NCBI RefSeq assembly: GCF_900109925.1
Contig: NZ_FOBW01000001.1
Coordinates: forward strand, 248,001 to 312,000
Source: Mesobacillus persicus
Lineage (GTDB): Bacteria > Bacillota > Bacilli > Bacillales > Cytobacillaceae
DNA: 64,000 nt
Direction: 5' to 3'
Position 1 is the first letter of the stretch. Every line of letters starts with the position of its first letter. This document shows positions 22,915 through 41,793 of this stretch, piece after piece. The notes below the pieces were generated by a model. It was given only the letters and a program-made list of their open reading frames with translations. It searched no databases and was not told the origin of the DNA. The translations under genes and the position numbers were made by a program.

Positions 22915-23511
22915 ATGGCAGTAAATGGTCTTATTCTTTTATTGGCTTACTTACTTGGATCGATTCCGTCAGGTCTGATTGTGGGCAAGCTCTTCTACAA
23001 AAAGGACATCCGCGAGCATGGAAGCGGAAATCTAGGAGGAACGAATTCGTTTCGTACTCTAGGTGTGAAAGCAGGCATCGCTGTCACACTGGCTGATATC
23101 TTAAAAGGAACGCTTGCAGCAATTCTTCCCCTTCTCTTTGATTCTAGTTTACATATGCTTTTAGTGGGGATTTTTGCGGTTATTGGACATATGTATCCAA
23201 TTTTTGCAGGTTTCAGAGGGGGAAAAGCAGTCGCTACTTCAGGTGGGATTCTGCTAGCCTATGCGCCTTATTTGTTCTTATTTATGCTTACCTTTTTCCT
23301 GCTCAGTCTACTTACGAGTAAATATGTTTCGTTGTCTTCGATTTTAACGGCGATTGCCACGTTCATTTATGCCCTGTTTACTGGAGATGTTGCTTTAATT
23401 CTTGTTGTGTTCTTCCTAATGGCCTTTGTCGTTTATCGTCATCGGGCAAACATTAAAAGAATCCGCGAAAAAACTGAGCCTAAAGTTAAATGGTTTAATA
23501 AAAAGAAATAA
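22915..23511 (+). CDS. plsY: glycerol-3-phosphate acyltransferase PlsY
   Basis: A 198-residue protein with about five transmembrane helices. PlsY signatures are visible: [28 protein letters not shown] (motif 1, about residues 37-51), [21 protein letters not shown] (motif 2, about 96-116) and a C-terminal [10 protein letters not shown]. It transfers the acyl group of acyl-phosphate (made by PlsX) to glycerol-3-phosphate, the first step of membrane phospholipid synthesis. GGAGAAATTTTA precedes the ATG. It is divergent from yneT and followed by a strong terminator, so it is transcribed alone. Confidence 0.96.
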
Positions 23512-23579: not shown

Positions 23580-23867
23580 TCACACTTTCAGTAATTGAAA
23601 TCGTCCGGATCCCAGGGTATCGATGACATAATCTAATTTCGTATGTTCAAAATAAACCATATCTTGATTATGTATGAGAAGATCAAGCTCATAAATGTGA
23701 AAAATTTGATCATCGGATAAGGGTTGCTCCTCCAGAGACAACTGTAGCTTTGGCCCTCCTCAACCAATGCCCATTGACAGACGGATAAAGAGCCTCTCAT
23801 TTTCGTTTTGTTCTTTTGTAACTACGCTTTTTAAAACTTCGCACGCTTTCTCAGTTAGACTAAGCAT
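23580..23867 (-). CDS. HesB-like selenoprotein (in-frame UGA read as selenocysteine)
   Basis: Read through one UGA, the minus strand gives a 95-residue HesB/IscA-fold protein starting MLSLTEKACEVLKSVV. The UGA is codon 36 (23762-23760), inside RLSMGIG-U-GGPKLQLSLEE, which is the site where HesB-like selenoproteins carry Sec and other relatives Cys. Coding similarity continues past the UGA to the normal end (DYVIDTLGSGRFQLL, stop UGA at 23582-23580). The C-terminal CGC pair of IscA is absent, as in this subfamily. AGGGGGATATAA precedes the ATG. A modest stem (CTACAG / CTGGAG) begins about 13 nt after the UGA and could be the SECIS. The role is unknown, perhaps redox or metal handling. Standard gene finders will miss it. 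Confidence 0.85.
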
Positions 23868-24045
23868 TTATATCCCCCTAGCTTAAATAATTCATTGTTC
23901 GTTTGACTACGATAAGTTTATAATCAATTTGTGGACATTATTTGTAGTTTTTCGTCAAATTCACCTATATTCCTACATCTATAATATATTATCCATAAGG
24001 AATGGAAAATAAAAATGCTCCAACAGGGCTAAAGGAGAAGCCGCA

Positions 24046-25212
24046 ATGATGAAGAAAAAGCGACGTTTCTATACAACTGGGATTATAACAGTAATACTAT
24101 TAGCTGGAGGATTGCTGTTCCTGCAAAAAGAACAGAGTGAAGCCAACGCTTTAGATGCAGACAAATTGTCTAATACTAAACATATTACACGAGATAGTTC
24201 TGTCGAAGGGAAAACGTATCAAGAAACGATTACGATTGCTGCAATTGGTGACGTCTTAATTCATGATACGGTTTTTGAGGATGCAAGAACCACTGATTCC
24301 TTTGACTTTAAACCAATGCTGGCACCTGTAAAAGAAGCGTTGATGAAGCCTGATATACTGCTCGCTAACCAAGAAACCATCCTTGGCGGGATTGAATTAG
24401 GTTTATCGGGGTATCCAACCTTTAATAGTCCGCGTGAGGTTGGAGAAGCTTTAATGGATGCTGGAGTGGATATTGTTTCTACGGCTAACAACCATACGCT
24501 GGATAAAGGTGAAAAAGGGATACAAAGCTCAATGAGTTATATGACTGAAGTCGGTCTTCCCTATGTCGGTTCTTTTAAAGATGATGAGGACAAGCAAAGG
24601 TTAAGAGTTTTAAACCATAGCGGTATAAACATTGCCTATCTTTCCTATACATATGGGACGAACGGTATTCCAGTTCCTGAAGGTAAGGACTTTCTTGTTA
24701 ATTTAATTGATAAAGCGGCGATGAAGGAGGAGATTCACCGCGCAAGAGAAGTTTCTGATGTCGTTGTCATGAGTATTCATTGGGGAAATGAATATCAACG
24801 CTTCCCTGATACGATTCAACAAGAACTTGCTCAGTTTATTGTTGATGAAGGGGTTGACGTTGTCTTCGGCCATCATCCTCACGTCCTTCAGCCAATGGAA
24901 TGGCTCAAAGCACAAGACGGGCGGCAAGCGTTGGTCATTTATTCTTTAGGAAATTTCCTATCAGGACAGATGTGGGATTATAAAGATATAGGCGGGATGG
25001 CCTCCGTTGATATCATTAAACAGGTTAGCCCTTCAGGCATGTCAGTGGAACTGGCTAATCCGTCTTTCTTTCCTACCTTTGTTTCTAGTAAGGGGCAACG
25101 GAATTACAAGGTAGTTCCGTTAAAACAAGCGAGTGATTTTGGTCTTGAAAATGCTTCTGCCAAATATGAAGAAATTTTAACTCATATGATGGATCCTCTG
25201 AATGTAAACTAA
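24046..25212 (+). CDS. CapA-family (PGA_cap) metallophosphatase-like exported protein
   Basis: A 388-residue protein with an N-terminal signal/anchor (TTGIITVILLAGGLLFL, about residues 9-25) and the CapA domain: AAIGDVLIHDTVF, ANQETILGG, GVDIVSTANNHTLDKGEKGI, VMSIHWGNEYQ, GVDVVFGHHPHVLQP and VIYSLGNFL. The Asp, Asn, His-rich motifs are those of calcineurin-like metal sites. The family takes its name from poly-gamma-glutamate capsule export, but most stand-alone Bacillus members have no known substrate, and no capB/capC genes are nearby. GGAGAAGCC precedes the ATG. It is transcribed alone, ending in a terminator. Confidence 0.88.
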   Translation: MMKKKRRFYTTGIITVILLAGGLLFLQKEQSEANALDADKLSNTKHITRDSSVEGKTYQETITIAAIGDVLIHDTVFEDARTTDSFDFKPMLAPVKEALMKPDILLANQETILGGIELGLSGYPTFNSPREVGEALMDAGVDIVSTANNHTLDKGEKGIQSSMSYMTEVGLPYVGSFKDDEDKQRLRVLNHSGINIAYLSYTYGTNGIPVPEGKDFLVNLIDKAAMKEEIHRAREVSDVVVMSIHWGNEYQRFPDTIQQELAQFIVDEGVDVVFGHHPHVLQPMEWLKAQDGRQALVIYSLGNFLSGQMWDYKDIGGMASVDIIKQVSPSGMSVELANPSFFPTFVSSKGQRNYKVVPLKQASDFGLENASAKYEEILTHMMDPLNVN

Positions 25213-25348: not shown

Positions 25349-25639
25349 ATGGAACTAACAATCAGCGATGAAGCGGCTTCATGGTACCAATCTGAGATGG
25401 ACCTAACCGAGGGTAGTTTTGTTCGTTTTTTTGCCCGTTATGGCGGAGCGAGTCCAATTCAGCAAGGTTTTTCCTTAGGGATTTCAAATGAAGAACCTGA
25501 GGCAGAGGTGGGGTCAAGTGTGAAGAAGAACGGAATTACCTATTATGTACTTGAAAAAGACCTATGGTACTTTGATGGACATAATCTTATTGTTGAATAC
25601 AATAACGATGCCTTAGAGCCTATGTACAAATATAGTTAA
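25349..25639 (+). CDS. yneR: HesB-like protein without cysteines (YneR type)
   Basis: A 96-residue protein of the HesB-like (iron-sulfur biosynthesis-like) fold: MELTISDEAASWYQSEM, VRFFARYGGASPIQQGFSLGI, and VLEKDLWYFDGHNLIVEY. It has no cysteine at all, so it cannot hold an iron-sulfur cluster as IscA does; this is the YneR subfamily, with unknown role. AGGGAGCTTAC precedes the ATG. Its position between plsY and yneQ matches B. subtilis. It is a distant relative of the Sec-containing HesB-like gene 1.5 kb upstream, so two paralogous types lie close together here. Confidence 0.85.
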   Translation: MELTISDEAASWYQSEMDLTEGSFVRFFARYGGASPIQQGFSLGISNEEPEAEVGSSVKKNGITYYVLEKDLWYFDGHNLIVEYNNDALEPMYKYS

Positions 25640-37900: not shown

Positions 37901-39310
37901 TTATTGAAATGATGCTAAAGCTTCTACAATTACATTTTCTTCCTTTTCGTCCACCGTTCGGAGGTCAAGATGTACTTCTTCCTTCTGAATCCGAACGATA
38001 ATCGCTGGAGTAGATTCCATTCTTAGCCTCCTTGCGAGCTGTTCCGCAGAGAAATCCGTATGGGAGATGGCAACTAAGAAGGTTGGCAATTCTACGTCAG
38101 GCATTGTCCCGCCGCCAACCTGACTCGTACCTTCCTTTAAGCGAAACGTGTATTGACTAGAGAGTCCATTACACTTCTCTATAAAGCTTTTGGCTCTTTC
38201 CTTAATTTGCTCTGGATCCATCAGGAGGTCCCGAATCGTTGGGATTTGCTCGATCCCCTTTTCCCCTTTTAGATAATCAGTTAAAGTAGCTTCTAGGGCG
38301 GCTAGTGTCATTTTATCGACCCGTAAAACTCTGGCAAGCTGATGGCTCTTCAACTTATCAATCCATTCTTTTTTTCCAGCAATCATTCCTGCTTGTGGTC
38401 CTCCTAGTAGTTTATCTCCACTAAAAGAAACAATGTCGGCTCCCATCCTTAATACTTCGCTAACGACCGGCTCCTCTCCAATTCCATGCTTACGAAAGTC
38501 ATAAAGTACCCCACTGCCTAAATCTTCATAAAAGATTACGTTTTTATGTTTTTCGGCTATGCTTGCAAGTTCTTCTGTTTCAACCGATTTTGTAAAGCCC
38601 ATGATTTTAAAATTGCTAGTATGTACTTTTAGAATCATTCTCGTATCTTCGCAAATGGCTCGTTCGTAGTCAAAAGCATGCGTCTTGTTAGTGGTACCGA
38701 CTTCGACAAGCTTTGCTCCACTTTCTTCCATGATCGAAGAGATTCGAAAGGAACCACCAATTTCGACCAACTGGCCGCGAGAAACGATAACTTCTTTGTC
38801 CTCAGCCAAGGCACGTAAAATCAGAAAAACGGCTGCTGCATTGTTATTGACCACCATTGCGGCTTCTGCCCCAGTGATTTCTTTTAGCAATTCTTCAGCA
38901 TGACTATGCCTAGAGCCTCGTTTTCCTTCTTGAAGCTTATATTCTAGATTTGAATAGTTCTGCGCTGTTTCAACGACATGTTTTACGGCTCGATCACTTA
39001 AGCGGGCCCTGCCTAAATTCGTATGTAAAATGGTGCCAGTTGCATTGATTACTGGTTTAAGTGTGTAGCCTTGCTGTTGGTCCATTCTTTTTGTTAATTC
39101 TTCAAATAAATGACTTAAAAAGGCCGCTTCCCCTGGGGATGGACCATTCCAGGTGCTTTTTACGATACCCTGACGTACTTCACTTAAAAGGTCTTTTAAA
39201 TGATTCGTGAGAATACTCGGGTCGATTCCTATTTTTTCAGATATTAAAGCAAAACGAGCATCCTTTTGTAGCTCGTGGACAGGTGGCATTTGCCTAAGAA
39301 CTTCCTTCAC
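37901..39310 (-). CDS. selA: L-seryl-tRNA(Sec) selenium transferase
   Basis: A 469-residue PLP enzyme converting Ser-tRNA(Sec) to Sec-tRNA(Sec) with selenophosphate. SelA features: an N-terminal tRNA-binding domain (about residues 1-70), VINATGTILHTNLGRARLS, HTSNFKIMGFTKSV, FYEDLGSGVLYDF and the PLP lysine, about residue 300, in SFSGDKLLGGPQAG. The GTG at 39310 is preferred, since GGAGGG ends 7 nt upstream, while the ATG five codons earlier lacks a site. Its presence, with selD and three Sec-type UGA genes in the same window, shows the organism makes selenocysteine. selB does not follow it, unlike in many genomes. Confidence 0.94.
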   Translation of the reverse strand: MKEVLRQMPPVHELQKDARFALISEKIGIDPSILTNHLKDLLSEVRQGIVKSTWNGPSPGEAAFLSHLFEELTKRMDQQQGYTLKPVINATGTILHTNLGRARLSDRAVKHVVETAQNYSNLEYKLQEGKRGSRHSHAEELLKEITGAEAAMVVNNNAAAVFLILRALAEDKEVIVSRGQLVEIGGSFRISSIMEESGAKLVEVGTTNKTHAFDYERAICEDTRMILKVHTSNFKIMGFTKSVETEELASIAEKHKNVIFYEDLGSGVLYDFRKHGIGEEPVVSEVLRMGADIVSFSGDKLLGGPQAGMIAGKKEWIDKLKSHQLARVLRVDKMTLAALEATLTDYLKGEKGIEQIPTIRDLLMDPEQIKERAKSFIEKCNGLSSQYTFRLKEGTSQVGGGTMPDVELPTFLVAISHTDFSAEQLARRLRMESTPAIIVRIQKEEVHLDLRTVDEKEENVIVEALASFQ

Positions 39311-39452
39311 TTGTATTCCCTCCATTTAACAATTGCCCGTATATTATAGCATTATTTCCAAACATCACCGATGGAAAAACGATTCCTTGTCCTTCTTTTT
39401 CCTTTTTGTGCATATATTGTTCACAAAAGACAAGATCGGGAGGAAACAATTG

Positions 39453-39728: not shown

Positions 39729-39827
39729 TACTGATTACTAACCAATCGGATAAAAACGAGGATTTCCAAGTATGAAACGCTCCTGTTGTTGAAAAACTAG
39801 CATAAAGACAACAACAGGAGGGATAGT

Positions 39828-40328
39828 ATGGGGATTATGAGTGGAGATCCTAAAGAGGAGCCGTTGCATGCAGGTGAAGTGTATCATCTTTGGAATCATT
39901 TATTCGAATCAAAAGCTTTATTAGTTACCTTACAAGTTTTAATGAACCATACCGGTGATGAGGATTTAAAAAAGTTTCTTGGTGATTTTTCGAAAGATTG
40001 TATTAAGCAGGAAGAAGAACAAGTAGAAAGCCTCCTGAAAGAAAATGGTCTAAGGCTGCCCCCTGCTCCGCCTGATCGACCAATGGTCAATCTTGAAGAC
40101 ATCCCAGCAGGTGCCCGAATCAACGATCCAGAAGTCGCCGCCCTAATCGGTAAGGAAATGTTGGCTGGAAAGCTGCTTTGCAGCTATATCATGAGCATGG
40201 CGATTCGAGAGGATATTGGGCAAATGTACAATGAGTTTCACACTCAAAGAGTAGAGCTCCATAACAAACTTCTAAAAATGAATAAAGATAAAGGGTGGCT
40301 TGTTCCTCCTCCACTTAACACGAAATAA
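39828..40328 (+). CDS. DUF3231 / CotF-like helical protein
   Basis: A 166-residue all-helical protein (EEPLHAGEVYHLWNHLFESK, then LKKFLGDFSKDCIKQEEEQVE and EMLAGKLLCSYIMSMAIRED, ending GWLVPPP). This is one half of a DUF3231 protein; related proteins usually carry two such four-helix, ferritin-like repeats and some are spore coat components. Only a single repeat is present here. CAGGAGGGATAGT precedes the ATG. A terminator follows. Spore or stress function is suggested only by relatives. Confidence 0.78.
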   Translation: MGIMSGDPKEEPLHAGEVYHLWNHLFESKALLVTLQVLMNHTGDEDLKKFLGDFSKDCIKQEEEQVESLLKENGLRLPPAPPDRPMVNLEDIPAGARINDPEVAALIGKEMLAGKLLCSYIMSMAIREDIGQMYNEFHTQRVELHNKLLKMNKDKGWLVPPPLNTK

Positions 40329-40369: not shown

Positions 40370-40606
40370 TTATGCTTCTAATTTTGCAATAATTTCTTCA
40401 GATGATGGAAACACTCCGGTCTCATCCTTTGAATAGAGTTTTTCTCCGTTCATCGATACTTCAAAGACACCACCGGTTGCTGGAACCAGCTCCATCTTCT
40501 CAATTTTCCCTCGAAAGTGTGTAAATAGGTCTTCTGCGATACTCGCAGCTTTTGGGGCGTAGTTTCACATCATGCAAAATTCGACTTTAATTTGAAACTT
40601 CTCCAT
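40370..40606 (-). CDS. SelW/Rdx-family selenoprotein with CxxU motif
   Basis: Read through one UGA, the minus strand encodes a 78-residue thioredoxin-fold protein: MEKFQIKVEFCMM-U-NYAPKAAS. Cys11 and the UGA at codon 14 (40567-40565) form the CxxU redox motif of the SelW/SelT/SelH (Rdx) family. The remainder (FRGKIEKMELVPATGGVFEV, NGEKLYSKDETGVFPSSEEI) is standard Rdx with the GGxFEV strand. A perfect 6-bp hairpin, CTGCGA-GTA-TCGCAG (40548-40534), begins 16 nt after the UGA, the right place for a bacterial SECIS. GGGAGGGATAAAAA precedes the ATG. The protein is likely a thiol/selenol redox protein. It lies divergently 134 nt from selD. Confidence 0.9.
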
Positions 40607-40740: not shown

Positions 40741-41793
40741 TTGAGTGAACAAGAAAAGATTCGTCTTACATCCTTGTCTTCGAAAGCAGGCTGAGGATGC
40801 AAAATTAGTCCTGAGGACTTGATGCAAGTTTTGCGTCTATTACCAAAACAAGAGCCAGTTCCTGAATTATTGGTTGGCAATGAAACCGCAGATGATGCTG
40901 GTGTATATAAGCTCACAGATTCAATTGCCTTAATCCAAACGGTAGACTATTTCACCCCAGTGGTGGATGATCCATATATGTTTGGCCAAATTGCGGCGGC
41001 CAATTCTTTAAGTGATGTCTATGCTATGGGTGGAGAGCCAAAAACGGTCCTCAATATTGTAGGGTACCCAGTAAAAAAACTAGGGCCGGATATCCTAGCG
41101 GAAATCATGCGAGGTGCGGCAGATAAGGTGAAGGAAGCGGGTGCAATTACAATCGGCGGACATTCTGTTGATGATCAAGAGCCTAAGTTTGGGTTATCGG
41201 TCACAGGAATCGCCCATCCAGACGCTATTTGGAAAAATGTCGGTGCCAAACCTGGAGATGTATTGGTCTTATCGAAACCAATTGGAGTAGGCATACTGAC
41301 GACAGGCATTAAACGGAATGCGGTCACTGCAGATCAGGAAAAAGCCGTTACTGAAACAATGGCCCTTCTGAATAAATCAGCAGCGGAAGCGTTAAAACCA
41401 TTCCACCCACATGCTGTTACAGATGTAACAGGTTTCGGCCTTCTTGGACACGGAAGCGAAATAGCTCGCGGTAGTGAGGTTACACTCGAGATTTCCCTAT
41501 CAAAAGTTCCGGTACTTGATGGGACCTTCGAGCTTGCTAGCCAAGGGGTTGTCCCTGGTGGATCGAAAGAGAACCATAAGTGGCTTGAAAACGATATCGA
41601 GTATCGTGACATTGCCGAGGAAGAACAACTCGTACTATGCGACGCAATTACTTCAGGTGGGTTGCTGGTTGCTCTTCCTGAGGCAGAAGCCGGCCCATAC
41701 GTGGAAGCTCTACATACAGCAGGTTTAACACAAGCCGCTATTGTGGGACATGTTACTGAGAAACAAGACAAGCTTATCCATGTTGTGCGTTAA
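40741..41793 (+). CDS. selD: selenide, water dikinase, itself a selenoprotein
   Basis: A 350-residue SelD that makes selenophosphate from selenide and ATP. The UGA at codon 18 (40792-40794) sits in LSSKAG-U-GCKISPEDL, the catalytic Sec/Cys site, followed by the essential lysine. The rest is complete: GNETADDAGVYKL, TVDYFTPVVDDPYMFGQIAAANSLSDVYAMGG, GGHSVDDQEPKFGLSVTG and TDVTGFGLLGH. The TTG at 40741 is chosen because GGAGGTG ends 6 nt upstream and the UGA lies in frame. If the UGA is read as stop, a truncated gene starting at ATG 40819 appears, lacking the active site. A terminator follows. Confidence 0.95.
40792..40834 (+). promoter_or_regulatory. UGA-Sec codon and candidate SECIS element in selD
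   Basis: After the UGA (40792-40794), GCAAAA (40799-40804) pairs with TTTTGC (40829-40834), and within it AGTCC (40807-40811) pairs with GGACT (40815-40819) around loop TGA. A bacterial SECIS should lie directly 3' of the UGA in the coding region, as this does. Confidence 0.65.

Follow-up and report, generated by a model that had tools for sequence, protein, structure and literature searches.

A probable HesB-like selenoprotein of Mesobacillus persicus, from a Bacillaceae branch in which a cysteine form seems never to occur

HesB-like selenoproteins are an accepted family, listed since 2005 (PMC1088965, PMC1794560) and tallied at 90 proteins in 86 organisms (PMC5029168). One of them has been labelled with 75Se in Methanococcus maripaludis, in a work that calls the function of the family unclear (PMC11097638), and a review gives the motif of the TIGR01911 model as UxGP (PMC13188914). 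The proteins of TIGR01911 (HesB_rel_seleno) and NF038090 (IscA_HesB_Se) share with the one described here a Sec residue in the U-x-G-P motif of their HesB/IscA domain. The protein described here falls below the cut-offs of both models (22.0 versus 66.35 bits and 32.7 versus 85 bits, respectively) and differs from them in belonging to a Bacillaceae branch without other Cys residues, for which no Cys counterpart was found. A search of the open literature, with subscription journals outside its reach, retrieved no paper on HesB selenoproteins of Bacillaceae, nor any linking a HesB selenoprotein to a CstR/persulfide cluster. While HesB-like selenoproteins as such are known, this branch, lying under both model cut-offs and seemingly devoid of a Cys form, seems to be new. 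Its hosts are numerous aerobic and often tractable bacteria, and the curated models miss it.

The window analysed, a stretch of 64,000 nucleotides of the M. persicus genome, contains the gene at the coordinates already given in the preliminary description, which had not stated that it lies on the minus strand (Table 1). When its internal TGA is taken as Sec, the translation reads MLSLTEKACEVLKSVVTKEQNENERLFIRLSMGIG-U-GGPKLQLSLEEQPLSDDQIFHIYELDLLIHNQDMVYFEHTKLDYVIDTLGSGRFQLLKV-stop, and the PF01521 model (Fe-S_biosyn, the HesB/IscA domain) matches the full length of the protein with 33.3 bits against a gathering cut-off of 26.3. The gene stands alone, flanked by plsY (22915–23511, +) and a CapA-like gene (24046–25212, +), both on the opposite strand, and a scan for its promoter and terminator gave no match above expectation. 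The nearest named relatives in a scan of named genomes were Mesobacillus species. Relatives divide into two sister clades, both Sec-only: clade A, marked by the motif SLEEQP and including the present gene, and clade B, marked by TLEESALE. We consider it highly probable, from comparative sequence evidence, that this is a real selenoprotein gene whose UGA is decoded as Sec, as had been proposed; the Sec machinery of the genome, the conservation of the UGA and of the frame, a SECIS hairpin, the alignment with the Cys site and the IscA fold all favour this reading, from which we infer the selenium in the protein and the chemistry of its Sec residue.

Table 1. Features of the hesB-like selenoprotein locus and of the associated selenium genes; positions are those of the window.
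Feature	Position	Strand	Remarks
hesB-like selenoprotein gene (clade A)	23580..23867	-	95 residues; ATG 23867-23865, stop TGA 23582-23580
In-frame UGA (Sec, residue/codon 36)	23760..23762	-	motif MGIG-U-GGPK; aligned to the first of the SufA-type ligand Cys
Shine-Dalgarno-like AGGGGG	23874..23879	-	6 nt upstream of the ATG; seen in the sequence
SECIS hairpin GUUG-U-CUCU-GGA-GGAG-CAAC	23723..23742	-	8 pairs with a bulged U; the apical loop, GGA, begins 26 nt past the UGA
Cysteine-free HesB-fold paralogue, likely YneR/PdhI	25349..25639	+	Tyr31 conserved; context, outside the selenoprotein system
selA, L-seryl-tRNA(Sec) selenium transferase	37901..39325	-	TIGR00474, 576 bits
selD, selenophosphate synthetase	40741..41793	+	TIGR00476, about 395-401 bits; in-frame UGA 40792-40794 (KAG-U-GCK)

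The A-type proteins IscA, SufA and ErpA (TIGR00049, PF01521) have the same fold, and in alignments with SufA-type proteins the Sec residue falls on the first of their three ligand Cys (GGGCSG), in agreement with the earlier placement of the UGA at the Sec/Cys site. The AlphaFold model of the protein (pLDDT 94.6) found its best PDB matches in IscA and SufA, with TM scores of about 0.75–0.82. A further match with an IscA-like fold is DsrR of Allochromatium vinosum (PDB 2k4z), an A-type-like protein of the sulfur oxidation pathway; it is not a selenoprotein, but it is reminiscent of the sulfur context of clade B. The modelled fold, the PF01521 score and the occupation of the first ligand place would together be compatible with Fe-S carriage of the A type, Sec standing in for one cluster ligand and the others being contributed across a dimer or by a partner. 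Against this, no sequence of clade A or clade B has the C-terminal CxC pair found in SufA-type proteins, 98/101 of these proteins have no Cys at all, and the host family has separate three-Cys proteins of the SufA type. The TIGR00049 score is 45.2 with a cut-off of 58.8, and of the three ligand Cys of A-type carriers only the first position is kept, as Sec. The missing CxC pair casts doubt on a classical role in carrying Fe-S clusters, and we regard Fe-S carriage in any form as a possibility of rather modest weight.

A role as an enzyme-binding regulator, with Sec serving as a redox switch, is suggested by the paralogue in the vicinity. The preliminary description had noted this neighbour as present and cysteine-free, which is the case, and had taken it as a natural comparison between Sec and Cys forms, an interpretation that does not stand. 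YneR/PdhI of Bacillus subtilis, which has the HesB fold in common with the selenoprotein and carries neither Cys nor Sec, inhibits the E1 component of pyruvate dehydrogenase, blocking it via Tyr31 (PMC10090944), and since Tyr31 is kept in the neighbour, the latter is likely the YneR/PdhI orthologue adjoining the selenoprotein gene, namely a putative pyruvate dehydrogenase inhibitor and not a Cys counterpart. The conserved position of clade A genes near a yneR-like gene, observed at 20/23 loci, the occurrence of a YneR complex model among the fold matches and the activity of YneR itself would all suit a similar regulatory function of the selenoprotein; even so, its sequence is distant from YneR, it is transcribed in the opposite direction to the yneR-like gene, and the neighbourhood is a weak argument on its own, so that we hold this explanation to be unlikely.

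The two clades occupy different surroundings. The chromosomal place of clade A is conserved, with plsY near 22/23 loci in addition to the YneR-like gene, and sulfur genes were found around 0/23 of them. Around clade B, genes for rhodanese/TusA, DsrE, TauE, CsoR or glutaredoxin lie within about 5 kb at 45/57 loci, and these kinds of genes match those of the sulfane-sulfur cluster controlled by YrkD in B. licheniformis (PMC9918477). Because the sister clade sits mostly in such sulfane-sulfur detoxification clusters, a Sec-based handling of sulfur is suggested for the branch. The product would be a small protein of the IscA/HesB fold whose only conserved chalcogen residue is Sec and which, devoid of the C-terminal CxC, is probably no classical Fe-S cluster carrier; its Sec might serve as a nucleophile, accepting sulfane sulfur or a thiol and handing it on through a Se-S intermediate, which appears more likely than Fe-S carriage. 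We put forward only tentatively this picture of a lone-Sec, IscA-fold protein handling sulfane sulfur or thiols, and for the clade A gene, regarded as a paralogue, the sulfur role would be extended from the context of clade B. Still more speculative is the broader proposal that the whole Sec-obligate HesB/IscA branch consists of single-Sec sulfane-sulfur (selenopersulfide) carriers or reductases instead of Fe-S carriers, with one clade turned into a housekeeping gene that stands alone and its sister into a working component of YrkD/CstR operons. If true, selenium would take a direct part in reactive-sulfur homeostasis. The tractable hosts and the sulfane-sulfur context of clade B make the function accessible to testing.

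The genome of M. persicus encodes a complete selA/selB/selC/selD set, including tRNA-Sec (63.5 bits) and SelB (366.9 bits). Both selA and selD are located in the same window as the hesB-like gene, 14–18 kb away, and their products would supply the Sec used in its translation. Plain ORF calling makes selD begin only at 40819. Between selA and selD lies a gene for a SelW-like selenoprotein (40370–40606, minus strand), with an in-frame TGA in a CMM-U motif and a TIGR02174 score of 61 bits, above the cut-off, so that the window holds a small selenium cluster. In the same genome, selB is adjoined by a TIGR04053 radical SAM/SPASM gene (L048:310–1500) and by a second YneR-like small gene (1678–1974). 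The same genome also encodes a second HesB-like selenoprotein, of clade C (L161:4986–5264, corresponding to about 39785–40063 of G000:C17, plus strand), with the pattern GFG-U-GGPQIGLALDEP..CC and 58.4 bits to TIGR01911. Its gene is located directly 3' of arsA in an arsR-arsB-arsC-arsD-arsA operon; a link between clade C and ars genes was considered and rejected, the arsA neighbour being found in this genome only and missing at both further clade C loci that were tested.

The TGA at codon 36 was retained at 80/80 loci from named genomes, and Cys occupied the site at 0/80, in a scan that included one search pattern designed to catch the Cys form. Among the matches listed for 193 genomes of the GTDB family, about 150 relatives were recovered, and all the strong matches carried TGA at the site. 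At the level of the order (397 genomes), 57/58 matches contained exactly one TGA; the remaining one, from genome G454, appeared to lack the stop and was suspected of being a Cys form, a suspicion that was rejected when it proved to be a frameshifted copy with the TGA retained. Save for that copy, the frame is open on both sides of the TGA in the family, order and named-genome samples alike, far more often than chance would give, and in close clade A pairs the median dN/dS was 0.21 before the UGA and 0.16 after it. Conservation beyond the UGA, whose loss had been named beforehand as a possible refutation, has therefore held. Close Cys homologues, which had been expected to confirm the U-to-C correspondence, were not found, since Cys appears at the Sec site in none of the 80 close relatives and only in remote proteins of the SufA type. 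It seems from these alignments that the Cys form has never been in use in this Bacillaceae branch, and a Sec that is seemingly never swapped for Cys bears on the question of why Sec is retained.

Codon choice and covariation mark out a hairpin downstream of the UGA. When the hairpin region was compared with the rest of the same 101 distinct genes, codons +7 to +12 appeared nearly fixed. The fixed codons are otherwise little used in those genes, and this stretch folds as a hairpin whose loop is GGA. Leu is encoded by CTG at +9 in 42/42 and 59/59 genes (101/101; background 18% or less), Glu by GAG at +11 in the same proportions (42/42 and 59/59, 101/101; background 17–29%) and Ser by TCT at +8 in 40/40 genes of clade A (background 15%). 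The Gly and Pro codons immediately after the UGA vary freely, as does the Glu codon at +10. Changes on both sides of the stem were observed at pairs 21-40, 22-39 and 24-37 in some clade A sequences, pair 22-39 being U-A in the window itself, and the covariation count in clade A gave 98% paired cells, with double changes in 3 pairs and 10 cells; this score was reached by 0/500 shuffles, and slid registers performed far worse. Rfam models matched around the gene at chance level only, and hence the case for the SECIS was made through codon fixation and covariation. Energy folding of the 48 nt that follow the UGA in the window returned a different structure, no stronger than those of shuffles, a result that counts against our reading. 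The frozen codons and the compensatory changes in three pairs therefore point to a SECIS element at 23742–23723, inside the stretch 23720–23762 where it had been anticipated. Bacterial SECIS elements are hairpins that follow closely on the UGA and have G in a small apical loop (PMC1088965), and the GGA loop conforms to this rule. The hairpin would recruit SelB and Sec-tRNA(Sec), by which the UGA at 23762–23760 would be read as Sec.

The distribution of the gene follows that of Sec decoding. Among the 397 genomes of the order, tRNA-Sec was detected in 48/51 carriers of the gene versus 130/346 non-carriers (Fisher p about 2e-15, with no correction for relatedness). Low-level read-through of UGA occurs in Bacilli, and the codon might in principle be leaky and be read as Trp or Cys instead of Sec. 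Nonetheless, a Trp or Cys codon never occupies the site at the loci from named genomes, and the covarying hairpin after the UGA, together with the match to tRNA-Sec and SelB, fits only SelB-dependent decoding, which makes leaky decoding very improbable. Least credible of all is that the UGA is a true stop, leaving a pseudogene or a peptide of 35 residues, as the standard code would have it and as could be argued from the plasmid relatives for which no gene is annotated here (the gene table being incomplete) and from the frame that is kept in some Sec-less genomes, given the purifying selection past the UGA, a TGA invariant in more than 100 distinct genes, the frozen SECIS codons and the association of the gene with the Sec machinery.

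Exceptions to this association weigh against decoding of the UGA as Sec, the reading we favour. In the family sample, genomes without Sec decoding also lack the gene, apart from G079, G161, G050, G171 and G175. The first two are incomplete assemblies, and G161 has SelB; in G050 the tRNA-Sec appears when the search is run at full sensitivity. The clade A gene was found in no complete genome of the family without Sec machinery. Genes of the clade B type were found in five genomes without tRNA-Sec and SelB, intact in G171, G175, G452 and G523 and frameshifted in G454. It follows that the gene may persist after its decoding machinery is lost or spread ahead of it. The clade B regions of G171 (L160) and G175 (L158) are 99.98% identical to a stretch of the Sec-decoding genome G048 (L159, contig C2), and this near-identity marks them as a recent transfer ahead of the decoding machinery. 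The region common to the three genomes is plasmid-like and carries sulfane-sulfur genes along with the clade B selenoprotein gene. The frameshifted copy of G454 (L162; G454:C2, about 106256–106560), by its disrupted frame, is a gene evidently decaying in a host with neither SelB nor tRNA-Sec.
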